DNA of 48,401 nt from a virus: positions 1 through 48,401 of the IMG/VR virus record IMGVR_UViG_3300046004_001843. One strand, written 5' to 3'. Shown piece after piece: positions 1,621 through 44,100 of this stretch (position 1 is its first letter; the number at the start of each line of letters is the position of its first letter). The translations under genes and the position numbers were made by a program. Under the pieces are notes generated by a model. That model was not told where the DNA came from and searched no databases. It was given only the letters and a program-made list of their open reading frames with translations.

Positions 1621-1941
1621 TTATTTTTTATTAGGGTCTCCATTAGTTTCTACACCTTCTTTAGTTCCAAAGTAATAAGAAAAAATCATAAGAACCAAGG
1701 TTTTAATTAAATCAAATAGTTGAGAATTTTGTTCCTCACTTAATAATTTAACCTGCCAAGCAATTACTTTATCAACAATAAATAATGCAACTAATGAGGT
1801 AAATATTAATAAAATAAAACGAACTAGGATTTCCTGAGTATGTGTGGCAAACATTTTATTAACATAATAAACTGATCCACCTATTACACCTAATCCTAAT
1901 AGGATTCCTGCAATCATTACTATTCCACCTTCACTAAACAT
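1621..1941 (-). CDS. Small two-helix membrane protein
   Basis: The reading frame opens at 1971, but I prefer the internal ATG at 1939-1941 (MFSEGGIVMIAG). It overlaps the preceding gene by 8 nt and lies just after AAAGGAG, a possible Shine-Dalgarno sequence. The product of 106 residues has hydrophobic segments near residues 8-28 and 40-60, then an amphipathic region and a polar tail (EGVETNGDPNKK). It is in the lysis region between the endolysin gene and another small membrane protein, so an accessory holin or antiholin is possible. No family is recognised. Confidence 0.65.
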   Translation of the reverse strand: MFSEGGIVMIAGILLGLGVIGGSVYYVNKMFATHTQEILVRFILLIFTSLVALFIVDKVIAWQVKLLSEEQNSQLFDLIKTLVLMIFSYYFGTKEGVETNGDPNKK

Positions 1942-2179
1942 CCTGCTCCTTTTGCTTATCTGTTGATGCAAATTTTTCTAATCCGGCAATACCGAATGAT
2001 CCTAATGTAATATACATAAATGCATTAAATACATATTCATTTAGTGGGAGGTGTTGACCCATGAACCCAGTTACAAGATCTACAATCATCACTATTGTCA
2101 TTACTGCAAATGATATGAAGCCTACTACAGTTTTTTCATTGTAGTCGTTTGATTTTTTAAAAATGTCTTTAAATGCCAT
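1934..2179 (-). CDS. Small membrane protein
   Basis: The frame is open from 2242, but the likely start is the ATG at 2177-2179 (MAFKDIFKKSND). The 21 residues upstream look like translated AT-rich leader, and the 20 nt before the ATG are almost pure A/T, as before other starts here. The 81-residue product has a charged N-terminus and two hydrophobic stretches (VVGFISFAVMTIVMIVDLV and YVFNAFMYITLGSFGIAG). It overlaps the next membrane-protein gene by 8 nt. Its place in the lysis cluster suggests a holin-related role, but no family is recognised. Confidence 0.65.
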   Translation of the reverse strand: MAFKDIFKKSNDYNEKTVVGFISFAVMTIVMIVDLVTGFMGQHLPLNEYVFNAFMYITLGSFGIAGLEKFASTDKQKEQDV

Positions 2180-2248
2180 AATATATTTTATTAAATTAAT
2201 GAATATATAACTTACTTGGCAAAACATATTTTTCATAGACATTATTTG

Positions 2249-2806: not shown

Positions 2807-3163
2807 TGGAGGTGGGGAGATTCGAACTCCCGTCCAGACTGCGTTAGTCAATACAATTTATACAGCTTATTTGATACGGTTTTAAAGTTGGAGTATCATT
2901 CAACTGGGGCCAACTGTTAAGTTAGCGAAACCACCACTCTATTTAATCTAATAGAGAAATCTTGGGTAATTTAGGCTGCTGCCAATACTTCGTTTCTCAA
3001 TAAAGAGAATACTGTGTTCATGTTAGCTTCGATTTGTGCGTTGTCTCCTTGAGATACTACACCGTTTGTGTTTTTGCCATTTAATTAAATTCACCTTAGT
3101 TTACAGTTATCTCTCTGGCTGATTGTATTAATTAGTTGTAATCTGTCAAAACCAGGCACCCCC
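2807..3163 (-). ncRNA. ssrA: tmRNA (phage-encoded, one-piece)
   Basis: The 5' end reads GGGGGTGCCTGGTTTTGACA, the tmRNA hallmark. The 3' end has a T-arm (GGGAG, TTCGAAT, CTCCC) and CACCTCC. G1-G7 (3163-3157) pair with 2808-2814 to give a 7-bp acceptor with G3.U70 (3161 with 2810), the alanyl-tRNA synthetase identity pair. The long helix is seen as ATTGTATT at 3122-3129 pairing perfectly with AATACAAT at 2850-2857. Further helices expected in the pseudoknot region are CTCTATT/AATAGAG (2937-2943 with 2950-2956) and AGTTGG/CCAACT (2886-2891 with 2910-2915). Discriminator A is at 2807. CCA is not encoded, so it must be added. The length of 357 nt is normal. It would rescue stalled ribosomes together with host SmpB. 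Confidence 0.93.
2971..3078 (-). other. tmRNA tag-peptide reading frame
   Basis: The tag frame ends with TTG GCA GCA GCC TAA at 2971-2985. Reading upstream, the frame is open to an in-frame TAA two codons before GGC at 3076-3078. If GGC (Gly) is the resume codon, the tag is 35 residues, starting GKNTNGVVSQ and ending RNEVLAAA. The Gly start and the small hydrophobic C-terminus (LAAA) fit proteolysis tags. The resume codon is inferred; a later resume codon would shorten the tag. Confidence 0.65.
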
Positions 3164-3792: not shown

Positions 3793-4716
3793 TTAGTAAG
3801 TTCTTGTTTCAGTCCACTTAACACCATCAGTTTGGGGTTGGTTATGTTCTGTTAATACTTTTTGAACTGCATCTCTTGCAGTCTCCCATGTTACTGGTCC
3901 TGTTTCGTCTGCATAAGCAACTGGATCTTTTCTTCCTAGTTTGATAAATGCTTCTATTCTTTCAACTGAAGATGCTGATTTATAATCTGAGTACCAAGTC
4001 ACTACAGGTGAAGTCCAGTTTGTATTTTCTGGGGATGTCTGTATAAATCCACTAGTTACTATTTTAATTGGCTTATACGAAGTATTAGTTCTTGAATAAA
4101 CTTCATCAAAATTTAATCCCAACTCTTTACATAATACTTCTCCATCTTTTAAGATATCAAATTTATCTCCTTGAAGATAAGGTGAGAAATAATTTACTCT
4201 TTCTGCATCCCAGTTTCCAATTCTAAAGGCTGCATCATCTGCATCTCTAAATTCTTGTCTACAATCAGGATAAATTGCATGATCACCTGCGTGAATACCT
4301 AAAGCAATGTCACAAGTCTCTTCTGTACGGTTTGCAATGGATAAAGCTACTGCTTGAGCAATAGAAGCAAACATTTTGTTTCTGTTAGGAACAACTGTTT
4401 CTTTCATATTGTCTTGCTCGTAATGACCTTCTGGTACATCTTTACCTCCTGTTACTAATGCTGAATCTAGTAGATCAACTAATCCGTCTAGTTTGATTTG
4501 ACGATAGTTTACTTTAATAGGTTCAAATGTTGAAACATTAATAGCACCGTTTAAATAATCTACCAACGATTGAGCTCTCTCTAGCTCTACTCTGTGTTTT
4601 TGACCATAGTCAAAGCTTATGGCCGTAACAGATGAGTATTCTTTTAAACAACGTAGTAACAATGTGCTACTATCCATTCCACCTGAAAGTGAAACCACTA
4701 CATGATTTTTAGACAT
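3793..4716 (-). CDS. queC: 7-cyano-7-deazaguanine (preQ0) synthase-like QueC
   Basis: The N-terminal SLSGGMDSSTLLL is the PP-loop ATP pyrophosphatase signature, followed by ISFDYGQKHRVELE, VPNRNKMF and LGIHAGDHAIYPDCR, all typical of QueC. QueC converts carboxy-deazaguanine to preQ0 with ATP and ammonia. At 307 residues it is longer than usual (about 220-230). In the usual C-terminal zinc region, TSCY..CGxCxxCxxRxxAF, the protein has TNTSY and SASSVERIEAF, so all four Cys are replaced although the flanks (VERIEAF, KDPVAYA) are kept. With DpdA and QueD nearby it should supply preQ0 for DNA modification. Confidence 0.92.
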   Translation of the reverse strand: MSKNHVVVSLSGGMDSSTLLLRCLKEYSSVTAISFDYGQKHRVELERAQSLVDYLNGAINVSTFEPIKVNYRQIKLDGLVDLLDSALVTGGKDVPEGHYEQDNMKETVVPNRNKMFASIAQAVALSIANRTEETCDIALGIHAGDHAIYPDCRQEFRDADDAAFRIGNWDAERVNYFSPYLQGDKFDILKDGEVLCKELGLNFDEVYSRTNTSYKPIKIVTSGFIQTSPENTNWTSPVVTWYSDYKSASSVERIEAFIKLGRKDPVAYADETGPVTWETARDAVQKVLTEHNQPQTDGVKWTETRTY

Positions 4717-6369: not shown

Positions 6370-6831
6370 TTATTCTGTGTATATTGCTGAGTTTTTACTG
6401 TGTTCTTTAAATTCTACGCTTACTACTCGTACTCTGTTATCTGTTTCAATTCTAATAAACTCAGAAGTTTTATCATAGATAAATTTAGCAAATTGTTCTG
6501 CTCCTGTAGCTGGTACTACTCTAACTTGTGCTATACCTGTACCATGCATTTCTAATGCTTTTAATAAAAATGGGTCATCTTCGGCAATAATATAAGTGTG
6601 ATCGAACATATGGTCCATCCATGCTTTAGGAGGCATACCATCAATAGTGTTTTTGGCTCTTTTCATTCCTCCAAAGTCCCACACCCAGTTTCTTTCATCA
6701 AGTTCTCCTTCAAATACAATTTTAAAAGAAATACCATAACCATGAAGAAAACTACAGTGAGTGCCTTCTGCTCTCCATTGACGAAATACTGTTGAGTAAC
6801 CATCAAAGACTTTTGTTGATTGAAATTTCAT
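6370..6831 (-). CDS. queD: QueD-like 6-carboxytetrahydropterin synthase
   Basis: The 153-residue protein has the PTPS/QueD pattern: THCSFLHGY (catalytic Cys and a zinc-type His), WVWDFGGMK, MDHMFDHTYIIAEDDP and PATGAEQFAKFIYD. QueD makes 6-carboxy-tetrahydropterin from dihydroneopterin triphosphate, an early step towards preQ0. In E. coli-type QueD the zinc ligands are one His in AAH and the two in HGH; here the aligned positions read STVF and HGY, so only one of three is plain. I have the impression this variant recurs in phage QueD-like proteins. No queE or folE is in the window; they may lie outside it or be supplied by the host. Confidence 0.85.
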   Translation of the reverse strand: MKFQSTKVFDGYSTVFRQWRAEGTHCSFLHGYGISFKIVFEGELDERNWVWDFGGMKRAKNTIDGMPPKAWMDHMFDHTYIIAEDDPFLLKALEMHGTGIAQVRVVPATGAEQFAKFIYDKTSEFIRIETDNRVRVVSVEFKEHSKNSAIYTE

Positions 6832-8722: not shown

Positions 8723-9703
8723 TTAAAATAAATCGTTTGCGTCCCAGTTTTGGACTCCTTTTGAATAATTAGTTACTCGGTTAGCGAAGAAATCTGTATG
8801 TTGTTTTCCTGCTGATAAGCTGTCAAACCATTTCATTCTCTTAATTGAAGCATCATCAATTCCATTGACAACGGGTTCATAACCTAAATCTTGCATTTTT
8901 GTATTAACTCTATATTTAATAAAGCTAACTAAATCGTATTTTGAGCAACCATCTAAATCACCCATTTCATAAACTTTATCAATAAAGTCTAATTCAAGTT
9001 TTAATGATAATAAAGCAGCTTGTTTAATAGCTTCTTTTAATTCGGGAGTATTTAATTCAGGTTTTTCAATTAATAATTGTCTAAATAACCAACATCCTGC
9101 TTCCGAATGCAAAGATTCGTCTCGAATTGACCATTCAACAATTTGTCCTACACCTTTTAATAAATTTCTTAGTTTAAATGAAAGAAGAATAGCAAATGAT
9201 GAAAATAAATTAACACCTTCAGTAAATGCTGAGAATATGGCTAGCGATTTGGCTCGTTCGCTCCAATCTGGTTCATCTTCGATTTTATCTCTTACATTCA
9301 TTAATGCTTGAATTTTAGCCATTGTTGATTCATCTTCTAAAAATTCAGAAAAATTATCTAATCCTAATTCTTCGTTCAATAATGAATAAGCTTCAGCGTG
9401 AACTGTTTCCATATTTGCAAAACACACAGCCATTGCTATAACTTCAGGTTTTCTAAACCATTTAGTAACTAATGTAGACCAATAATCGTTTACTACTGTT
9501 TCTGTTTGGGCAAATCCTTTTAGTATAGAACCTATAACATTTTTTTCGGATTCACTTAAATTTTGTTTCCAATCATTTACATCAGACATCATAGGGACTT
9601 CCGTATGTAACCAATGAGCTTGTTGTTGTTTCATCCAAAAATCAAATGCTTCTGGGTATTCAAAGGGCTTATAAACTACTCGCTCTTGGGTAATATTTCT
9701 CAT
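8723..9703 (-). CDS. nrdB: Ribonucleoside-diphosphate reductase class Ia, beta subunit
   Basis: The 326-residue protein keeps the di-iron and radical residues: QTETVVNDYW, ANMETVHAEAYSLL (Glu, His and, four residues after His, the radical Tyr), FTEGVNLFSSFAILLSF and IRDESLHSEAGCWLF (Glu and His). The C-terminus (VQNWDANDLF) is the type of tail that docks on NrdA. It makes the tyrosyl radical for class Ia catalysis. The gene is directly upstream of nrdA and has a promoter-like motif 28 nt before its ATG. Confidence 0.97.
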   Translation of the reverse strand: MRNITQERVVYKPFEYPEAFDFWMKQQQAHWLHTEVPMMSDVNDWKQNLSESEKNVIGSILKGFAQTETVVNDYWSTLVTKWFRKPEVIAMAVCFANMETVHAEAYSLLNEELGLDNFSEFLEDESTMAKIQALMNVRDKIEDEPDWSERAKSLAIFSAFTEGVNLFSSFAILLSFKLRNLLKGVGQIVEWSIRDESLHSEAGCWLFRQLLIEKPELNTPELKEAIKQAALLSLKLELDFIDKVYEMGDLDGCSKYDLVSFIKYRVNTKMQDLGYEPVVNGIDDASIKRMKWFDSLSAGKQHTDFFANRVTNYSKGVQNWDANDLF

Positions 9704-41192: not shown

Positions 41193-44100
41193 TTATTGAA
41201 TATCTAAATATTTGTATATTGTTCTAAAAGCAGTTGATGGTGCTGATGGAGATGGTGTTGGTGTTGGCGATGGTGATGGGTTTGGATTTACATTTAAGTT
41301 AACTGTATTGCAATTAATTGATGAATTATATGATGCAAACCATTGATTGGGGTTAGTAGTAGTCCGAACCGGTGTAAATGTATAAGGGCTGTTTAAGTTA
41401 ATATTGTATATAATTTCATTTGGGTATGTTGAACTAACAGCTACATATAAATTTCCATTTGATTCGAATAATTTAAAGGAATACGTACTATTCCCGGCAG
41501 GAATTGTTGATGATAAATCAATATCTAATTCTAAAGCCCCATCTGGGTATGAGTATTGGGATAAGTAGTAGACGTATTGGGTTGATGAGGTTGCTCGTCT
41601 TCCAACTGTTATTACTTTATTAGTGGCTGTTAACATAAGGGCATCCAATCCCGAAGGAGCATATATGTTAAACATAGTTGTCATTTGAGTAGCCGTAACA
41701 GTATTATTTGTTATATTTAATTTAACTAAAGGATTAACAAATGGTCCCGCAGGATTATATGTTGAACTATAATTAACAAGCGTAGTAAGCAAATTAGTAT
41801 TATCTATTGCTTGTAAATAATTAAACTGGGGTCCTGAATATCCAGAAATTGATATGGTTCTGTTAAATGTTAATGTTGTTGGATTGTTTGATACATTCCA
41901 TTCGTTAATATAATTAGTTTGGTTTCCTTTCCAATATTTAGTTGTTGTGTGAGCTTCAACCATATTACTTGTATTATCTCCGGGTAACGTAATTGGTGTT
42001 GAGGTATTAGTAGTAATATTATAATTGTATGTAGAAGCACCACCTGTGCTATAATAAACACATCCTAATGAACTAATATCTTTAATTAAACGTACGGAAT
42101 ATCCACTAGTTTTAGAGAATCCTTTAAGGTCAAGTAATGAATTATTATAATATAAATCAGCATATATTGCTAGATTAGTATATCCAGGGGTTGAGATAGC
42201 TGTAGAAGTCCAGAAAGGCCCAAATGATTTTATACCCCCAAATTGGGCATTTTCTCTTCCTCCTCCTGGTAGTCCTGTCCAACCTGTTTCATTTGTTGCT
42301 CCTGTATTAGGACTATTCCAAAGTGTAGTTCCTGTTCGTTTTAATTTACCTCCGGCTACATTTGTACCCCCCAAATACTGGCGCAATGTTTCAATTTCAG
42401 CCTCTGTTGGTACATGATAACCGACAGGAGCTAATCCACGAGGATCATTTACAGCATACCAGTTGTATAGTTTATTATATGTACAACCATTAGTTGGGTT
42501 GTTGTCGTAGTAACACCAAGCTCCTGTAGTTAGAGTATTCCAAGCTGTTGGATCTGTAACTTGTGGTATGACATCACCATTTCTATAAGTAGTAACATCT
42601 AAATTACATGCTGTCCATGTTTGTGTTCCTATTATTACATTAGGTAAAGCACATGGTGTACATGGAGGTGATGGAGATGGTGTTGGACTTGGTGATGGGC
42701 TAACAGCTGGTGCTGGTAATACAGAAGCGGCACATATACCAAAAACTGTACCTTGTATTCCACCAGGACCCGAAATAGTTAAAGTAGTATACAAACTGCT
42801 TGCATGTACTTTAAGAAATCCACCTCCTGTAATATTTTGGTTTAAACTATTGAGCCCAAAAACAGATCCAGTTACCGTATTTGCATTAATATTATCAAAA
42901 CATCCCTTACATGCTGTAAGAGAAGGAATCCCACCATTAGTATTAAAAGCAAAAGATTCATAATGACCTCCAGTAGCTATAGGACTATCCCCCATACCGG
43001 TTAGTAATAATACTATGTCATTAACGGGTTGGCTAAATGTTAGAGTATAAGTAAAATCACCAGGATACCAACCTAACCAGACTGTATTTGAAGCATTAAG
43101 TACTGTGTTAGTCCCGGAACATCCTATATCACTATATGGCATTGAATTAGGAGTAATCCCAGTAAATGATGGGGTTAATGTAACTCCACCATACGTAACA
43201 GGACTAAATTTAGGGAGTAACGCTGGGGTACAAGTATCGCAATTATTAGGTATTATAAAGTTAGTATTAATACAATTGGATAGTTGAGAAGCATTAATTA
43301 AGGCTAGTCCTGGGTTTTGGACTAACGTTAGAGCATACGGTGTAGCAGTATCTATTTTATACATGTTGTACCCGATAATGTATATATTTCCATTTAATTC
43401 AACTAATCCACTAGGAGTTGTAATAGTTGGTGATAATGATTTATATAACTCTAAATCCCCCGTAGTATAATTGTACTGAAGGAGGATAATGATAGTAGGA
43501 GTATTTGTATCTCTAACTAAAATGATAAGTTTTGGATTAACACCATTAGTTACTACCAACCCACCAACAGGTTCTGTTTGTATTGGTAAAAAACATTTAG
43601 TAACAAAAGTAGCTATAGGATTTGAGGTGCCATCAGCCGGTATATTTATTTCAACTATAGGTTGAGAATATAAATTTCCACTACTGTCCGGACTAGTTAT
43701 TTTGTATGAACCTACTAAAGTAGAATTATTTAGAGCAAATAATCCATTATTTGGTTTAAGACCAGTTGGTAAAGCTATATTTCTATTAAAGGTAGAAGAA
43801 AATGGAGATAATACTATATTACTTTCTCTTAAATTAACTTCAGAAGTAGCAGCTCCAGTAGCATATACCCACATTTTATTGCTTGTATTAGCAATAACTG
43901 TAGGGAGATTATTTGTATTATCATTAGCAGGGTATGGGTTTGCTGTTACACTAAGTACTGCGGATGTATTAGTTGTAAAGTTATATGAACCATATCCCTT
44001 GGTTTGAGTTCTATACAACATAGTATCACACCCACTAGCATTAGGCCCTAATAATTTACCTTTAGAACATGATAATAATGAATTTGATCCACCCGAATCT

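Follow-up and report, generated by a model that had tools for sequence, protein, structure and literature searches.

The stretch of DNA described here (the window, 48,401 nucleotides) is a virus record with genes for a ribonucleotide reductase, a DnaB-type helicase, a recombinase, and tail and baseplate proteins. Of the named phages, those closest to it at whole-genome level are the Flavobacterium immuto phages, with 82% identity over 10% of the first 25 kb; the one immuto phage record searched has no match to RF00023, the tmRNA family of Rfam. Near one end of the window, on the minus strand, lies a tmRNA gene with the following parts:

2807..3163, minus strand: one-piece tmRNA gene, 357 nt including the discriminator base A, scoring 77.9 bits with RF00023
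3157..3163, minus strand: 5' strand of the P1 acceptor, GGGGGTG, with 7 of 7 pairs to 2814-2808, G3.U70 among them
2808..2814, minus strand: 3' strand of the P1 acceptor, CACCTCC, pairing with 3163-3157 and followed by A73 at 2807
2815..2831, minus strand: T-arm, GGGAG-TTCGAAT-CTCCC
3122..3129, minus strand: 5' strand of an 8-bp P2 segment, AATACAAT, pairing with 2857-2850
2850..2857, minus strand: 3' strand of the 8-bp P2 segment, ATTGTATT, pairing with 3129-3122
3090..3121, minus strand: PK1 region, CAGCCAGAGAGATAACTG...AAACTAAGGTGAA, the DNA signature of the phage tmRNA family, which served as search seed
2971..3078, minus strand: tag reading frame, from the GGC resume codon (3078-3076) to TAA (2973-2971), 35 codons and a stop
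2998..3036, minus strand: conserved tag core, QIEANMNTVFSLL, residues 15-27, within the predicted helix of residues 10-34
2974..2988, minus strand: tag C-terminus, LAAA with V before it, an SsrA-like end
2931..2961, minus strand: post-tag motif, GATTTCTCTATTAGATTAAATAGAGTGGTGG, with a hairpin at 2956-2937, also present in other phages
2872..2905, minus strand: candidate H-type pseudoknot, AGTTG..GATAC..CAACT..GTATC, from a by-eye reading of the sequence

An earlier note, made from the letters of the window, had described this locus as a complete one-piece tmRNA with an unusually long tag, and had proposed checking it with a tmRNA covariance model or ARAGORN. The RF00023 model matches 3163-2804 (minus strand) with all 374 of its positions covered and a score above the gathering score of 47, and the 7-bp P1 with G3.U70, the T-arm and the 8-bp P2 are where the note had placed them. 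ARAGORN, the other program proposed, misses the gene and calls nothing in the window. The 35-residue frame also reads as the note had read it, ending in VLAAA, and the encoded peptide is GKNTNGVVSQGDNAQIEANMNTVFSLLRNEVLAAA. Bacterial tmRNA tags mostly have 8-20 residues.

A blastn search with the window's tmRNA gene finds matches in Cellulophaga and Flavobacterium phages. The tag is GNNTNAVNAQIEANMEAVNAILNLEVAVGV in the Cellulophaga phages Calle and phi40:1, GNTNNSVVSLEDNAQVEANMNMAFSLIREDVAVAA in FpV4 and GNDTDNTQLKANMTVVHNILNGSDALIGSSVQKLAMVA in phi14:2; among relatives, RF00023 scores of 87.6, 86.6 and 58.2 bits lie above the cut-off, and that of phi14:2, at 46, just under it. Many Vibrio and Lactococcus records in the same list were rejected; they match over short stretches and do not have the same gene; the Lactococcus stretch is a shared motif described below. 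Among the records opened, only that of Calle carries a tmRNA annotation (Calle_1, MT732432.1 43002-43361, the same as L003 2562-2921), and it sits some 50 nt away from 42950-43311, where RF00023 places the gene.

To widen the sample, IMG/VR was scanned with the PK1 seed CAGCN{1,3}AGAGAGATAACTG, which gave at least 120 loci, 116 of them with a phage-type tmRNA. The working set of 128 rows combines the IMG/VR matches listed, the isolates and the window, and includes repeated loci (L001 and L002 are the window; L010-L013 repeat L003-L006). A complete tag is present in 124 rows, duplicates included, and these reduce to 84 distinct tag genes and 80 distinct peptides among the matches listed, with lengths of 26-49 residues and a median of 35. 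New loci from a later seed scan add three tags, of 35 and 25 residues with the ANM motif discussed below and of 33 residues without it (L248). The P1/T-arm pattern is matched in 103 of the 128 rows, the other 25 being incomplete loci or off-pattern. A row entered the full-length set when at least 6 of the 7 pairs in P1 and 4 of the 5 in the T-arm could form, and 74 distinct tmRNAs, the window's included, make up this set.

The structural and identity elements of this family can be compared across the full-length set. All 74 (matches listed) have G3.U70 and A73, in a tRNA-like domain of alanine identity that has a T-arm and no anticodon arm. P1 occurs in 12 sequence types; pairs 4-7 vary with pairing kept throughout, and every pair is Watson-Crick except that at position 3, which is always G.U. 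Pairing is thus 100%, against a mean of 77% and a maximum of 89% when 3' halves are shuffled among the 12 types; this level is partly built in by the entry rule of at least 6 of 7 pairs, whereas 7 of 7 in all 74 is not. P1, P2 and the T-arm all appear in the consensus fold computed for 23 compact relatives; pseudoknots lie outside the models of both RNAalifold and minimum-free-energy folding, and pseudoknot stems are given here as by-eye candidates. Around the stop codon (P5), a local hairpin is found in 2 of 74 phage tmRNAs and in 240 of 1480 shuffles, and a helix of at least 7 bp in 60 of 74 and in 1124 of 1480. The energy of the stop-codon duplex has a z of -0.23 in the phages, in a test that is powerless, as it gives 0.12 for 32 true host tmRNAs. 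In none of the three comparisons do the phages show a signal over shuffles.

The earlier note had left room for a resume codon further downstream. The covariance model alignment places the consensus resume codon, GCa, on the window's GGC at 3078-3076. All 74 distinct full-length phage tmRNAs (matches listed) have TAA at -5 to -3, G at +1, and A at +4 and +5; in 32 host tmRNAs, A at -4 together with G at +1 is found in 32, T at -5 in 31 and A at -3 in 28. The distance from the 5' end to the resume codon is 83-90 nt in the phages and 93-98 nt in the hosts. Model register, upstream TAA and 5'-end distance all point to GGC 3078-3076 and lend no support to a downstream start. A true tag that begins later and is shorter would follow the ARAGORN calls for many relatives, since in most relatives that it detects the program starts at AQIEANM, DNAQIEANM, ANMNK or other internal codons. 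Those starts vary by locus inside one conserved frame, however, and TAA at -5 to -3 followed by G at +1 is found only once, where host tmRNAs and the covariance model agree; moreover, ARAGORN itself begins at the upstream G or D in L027, L042, L067, L080, L108, L117, L120 and L130. We consider a shorter tag very unlikely.

The tag frame behaves as a coding frame throughout the sample. ANM is present in 79 of the 80 distinct peptides (matches listed), within a core that can be written QxxANMxxVxx[IL][IL]; because the seed lies upstream of the tag, the search did not select for this conservation. Long tags without ANM are those of L056 (49 residues) and L248 (33 residues, GEITNEVGTRADVEAVIRFIAPVAQEVELELAA). 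When 68 distinct 15-codon cores are aligned on ANM, all 68 have Q at -3 and 67 have V at +5, with I, L or M filling positions +8 and +9. An in-frame stop occurs in 0 of the 68 cores, while the two other frames have stops in 67 and 68 of them. Third codon positions are the most variable (heterozygosity 0.47, against 0.32 and 0.22), an excess reached by 177 of 20000 column shuffles, and in the four cores with least freedom several codons are in use for A, N and V. The pN/pS ratio is 0.40 in the cores and 0.52 across the whole tag (27 aligned 35-residue genes), both rough values with synonymous differences close to saturation. Judged by this pattern of substitution, the tag frame is protein-coding.

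Outside the core the tags are less uniform. ANM begins at residue 7, 9, 10, 11, 13, 14 or 18 according to the length of the lead, and the tail varies in length as well; some tags resemble joins of two classes, as in L034, where the lead of one class is followed by VVHNILNGG of another. The C-terminal end of the 80 peptides (matches listed) is AA in 74, VA in 5 and GV in 1, so that the family has the hydrophobic Ala-Ala end of the SsrA type. None of the 80 fits the nine residues of the GENNYALAA type (G-x-x-N-Y-A-L-A-A), and the window's tag has 35. Taken together, comparison among the relatives establishes, short of experiment, a tag that is long and under selection, carried on a tmRNA of standard type.

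AlphaFold, run with 35 tags, predicts a helix over residues 10-34, with a mean pLDDT of 76.8 and a pTM of 0.40; pLDDT is 88 over residues 11-20 and 89 over residues 21-30 (about 88 for the two together). The core is amphipathic, with a mean hydrophobic moment of 0.37 against 0.24 for shuffled cores, a mean exceeded by 78 of 79 tags. Searches for a source of the peptide gave no PDB match at a useful score, and in Pfam and PHROGs no family was hit by two or more of 35 tags (best E-values 0.054 and 0.083). A tag profile run on 27 phage records finds a tag-scale match in each, with a second copy in G124 and an extra weak match at 9368-9418 of the window (E 0.09). The same profile gives weak matches in 4 of 11 host genomes, the best with E 0.006 (G012), which we read as an unrelated hydrophobic open reading frame.

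Carriers of the family belong to several groups of phages: Calle and phi40:1 are Pervagoviridae, phi14:2 is a crAss-like phage of the Steigviridae, FpV4 is a Fipvunavirus and the window phage is immuto-like. We count at least three groups, because FpV4 and phi14:2 share many proteins pairwise and are not fully independent. A match to SmpB is absent from 31 carrier records (27 and 4, the latter being those counted as carriers in a second search that gave 0 of 6, with L290 and L291 left out), and ClpP has a sub-threshold match in 1 of 27 (G130, 18.1 bits). Among the open reading frames of at least 40 codons in Calle, FpV4, phi14:2 and the window, none is common to three phages (blastp, 1e-4), in a comparison where the window is a 48-kb fragment from which a gene could be missed, and where a very small or fast-evolving partner escapes blastp. 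The lack of a protein common to three of these phages favours a partner from the host. A gene that moves between unrelated phages with its peptide kept suggests a partner encountered by every one of them, which would be a host protein.

The surroundings of the gene have several further features. Just upstream of the tmRNA, at 3277-3191 (minus strand), is a tRNA-like element with an 8-bp acceptor (GAATCGGT/ACCGATTC), a good T-arm and no regular anticodon arm, which is called neither by ARAGORN nor by Rfam at gathering. In the immuto phage a counterpart annotated as tRNA-Cys (L007 3247-3332) agrees with it at both ends but not in the middle. In L026 a weak tRNA match lies some 100 nt upstream of the tmRNA. 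The motif GATTTCTNTATTAGATTAAATANAGTGGTGG, at 2961-2931 (minus strand) in the window, comes after the tag, as it does in many relatives; in L222 and probably in L008 it comes after other tags. In Lactococcus phages such as AM1 it lies upstream of the tmRNA and outside it, where no Rfam family matches; L220 1511-1541 is among the motif sites. L008 (crAss-like phage cr128_1, about 1202-1868) appears by eye to hold a tmRNA with the short tag GNTYRAAA, missed by RF00023. A group I intron comes next, at 1599-1868 (RF00028, 86.1 bits). Elsewhere in the window, 3793-4716 and 6370-6831 (both minus strand) encode QueC and a PTPS-family, QueD-like protein, part of the preQ0 pathway, and 7-deazaguanine DNA modification in this phage is possible. 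A 102-residue protein at 1934-2242 (minus strand) weakly resembles the type VI secretion protein TssN (24.5 bits, below the Pfam cut-off of 30.3).

For contrast with the hosts, a search of 120 genomes from the family to which a Flavobacterium MAG belongs found a tmRNA above the cut-off in 113. Tags were read in the best 30 of the 113 by score and in three further MAGs, and all 33 of these chromosomal tmRNAs have a 9-residue tag of the GENNYALAA type (by ARAGORN in 32; the last, miscalled by the program, reads GENNYALAA by eye). The phage tag is three to four times as long. The stretch after the stop codon has a median length of 169.5 nt in the phages and 271 nt in the hosts, as if tag length were traded against the post-stop stretch to make room in the RNA. 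The hosts score 117-162 bits with RF00023, against 77.9 for the window. The comparison of tag lengths called for in the earlier note thus sets 26-49 residues (matches listed) against 9 in the 33 chromosomal tmRNAs, and the note's suggestion that the tag may have phage-specific properties is supported by a long tag conserved across phages and absent from those 33. As for altered protease targeting, the example given in the note, the phage tag still has Ala-Ala at its C-terminus. A bacterial reservoir is not apparent: none of 46 genome-contig stretches with the exact seed, from which diverged copies would escape, has the ACTAAG continuation.

Starting from the RNA, its frame, the conservation of that frame and the contrast with 33 chromosomal tmRNAs, all of which are observed, we infer a mechanism in which charging, use of host SmpB, degradation and a helix partner would each play a part. 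The phage tmRNA would be a working one-piece RNA of standard type, served by the alanyl-tRNA synthetase, the EF-Tu and the SmpB of its host. Stalled ribosomes would be rescued by ordinary trans-translation from GGC 3078-3076, with 35 residues added where the host adds nine. The tag may be divided into three parts, namely a short variable lead, the conserved amphipathic helix QxxANMxxVxx[IL][IL] and the SsrA-like end, [LVIM]xAA. The end would still act as a degron of the ClpX type, and the helix would dock on another protein, most probably one supplied by the host, for example an adaptor or an unfoldase domain, which would steer tagged chains into a route preferred by the phage. We think it most likely that the tag joins an Ala-Ala degron to a docking helix, and to this reading as a whole (working phage tmRNA, host factors, three-part tag) we give a probability of roughly 0.55. 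Weighing against it are the two long tags that lack ANM, the short-tagged tmRNA read by eye in cr128_1, the sub-threshold ClpP match in G130, and the Pfam, PHROGs and PDB searches, in which the tag matched nothing at a useful score.

Other readings of the same data have to be weighed. The gene could be a decaying, non-functional copy of a host tmRNA, as the ARAGORN miss and the score below those of the hosts might imply, yet the compensated changes in P1, the invariant identity elements and the open, conserved frame in 84 distinct tag genes (matches listed) make this exceedingly improbable. The tag could also be a plain degradation tag of incidental length, the pseudoknot region having been partly lost and a longer frame filling the space. 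An Ala-Ala C-terminus that is kept and a post-stop stretch shorter than that of the hosts, as if length had been traded, are consistent with this, as is the dependence of survival on rescue rather than degradation (Huang et al., Chadani et al., as cited in PMC8012679). Mere filler, however, would not hold Q, A, N, M and V across 68 distinct cores amid codon drift, whereas the parts on either side of the core, lead and C-terminal segment, do differ in length (ANM positions 7-18). We think incidental length unlikely, and of the three readings of the tag (degron with docking, effector, incidental) it is the weakest, because codons drift while residues stay.

In the effector reading, the helix is a payload placed on many truncated chains, where it would inhibit or recruit a host protein (a protease, a ribosome factor or a defence protein) or make the chains self-associate. 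Such a role would suit a conserved amphipathic helix in which the polar residues Q and N, next to M and V, are invariant, and the tag is carried by several phage groups and by none of the 46 genome-contig seed matches. Against it, a degron-like end, found in 79 of 80 peptides (matches listed), would destroy an effector, and we regard an effector as the tag's main role as improbable too, although the same evidence fits a docking helix and an effector helix alike. A tag so much longer than that of the hosts, with a conserved helix in it, suggests that these phages alter the fate of proteins made on stalled ribosomes. More tentatively, every chain released by the phage tmRNA might carry a conserved helix that binds a specific host protein, in which case trans-translation would serve, beyond disposal, to deliver or sort proteins as the phage directs; we offer this as a possibility that we would not bet on.

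Phage tmRNAs are already catalogued in databases, and what the present family adds is a long tag with a conserved peptide in several phage groups, which shows selection on the tag itself, beyond ribosome rescue. It also makes a question testable, namely what QxxANMxxV binds. In practice, tags of this class are easily misread: the window's gene goes undetected by ARAGORN, which in many relatives places the tag start too far downstream.

Several published data sets allow a comparison with known systems. The tmRNA database of 2025 holds 79 bacteriophage sequences among 97,179, with a commonest tag length of 10 residues and tags of 2 residues at the low end (PMC11915505); a class of long, conserved, helical tags is not part of the description given in the sections of that paper available to us. 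A tmRNA is reported in mycobacteriophages and Bacillus phage G (PMC4131195), in 402 of 18,146 phages, with phage-directed tagging of host proteins for degradation proposed as a possibility (PMC9004378), and, as one gene, in Calle (PMC8776804). The tmRNAs of the mycobacteriophage Bxz1 group, Bacillus phage G, DS6A and the OM43 phage Melnitz resemble the window's in being phage-borne rescue RNAs that are proposed to use host factors; unlike it, that of DS6A extends scarcely beyond the tRNA-like domain, that of Melnitz is in two pieces, and the passages on these tmRNAs make no mention of a long conserved tag (PMC4131195, PMC9004378). Within a limited open-access literature we found no account of the tags of the present family.

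The closest known relatives are the tmRNAs of Cellulophaga phages Calle, phi38:1 and phi40:1, of phi14:2 and of the Flavobacterium FpV phages, which belong to the same family, with the PK1 signature and the ANM core, and have tags of 30, 38 and 35 residues. The chromosomal one-piece tmRNA (ssrA) of the Flavobacteriaceae is like the phage RNA in its one-piece order, G3.U70, T-arm and hydrophobic Ala-Ala tag end, and in its resume codon, which has A at -4 and G at +1 and lies at a similar distance from the 5' end. It differs in its PK1 sequence, in a post-stop stretch that is longer than that of the phages, and in a tag of 9 residues, where the phage tag has 26-49 and a conserved helix core.
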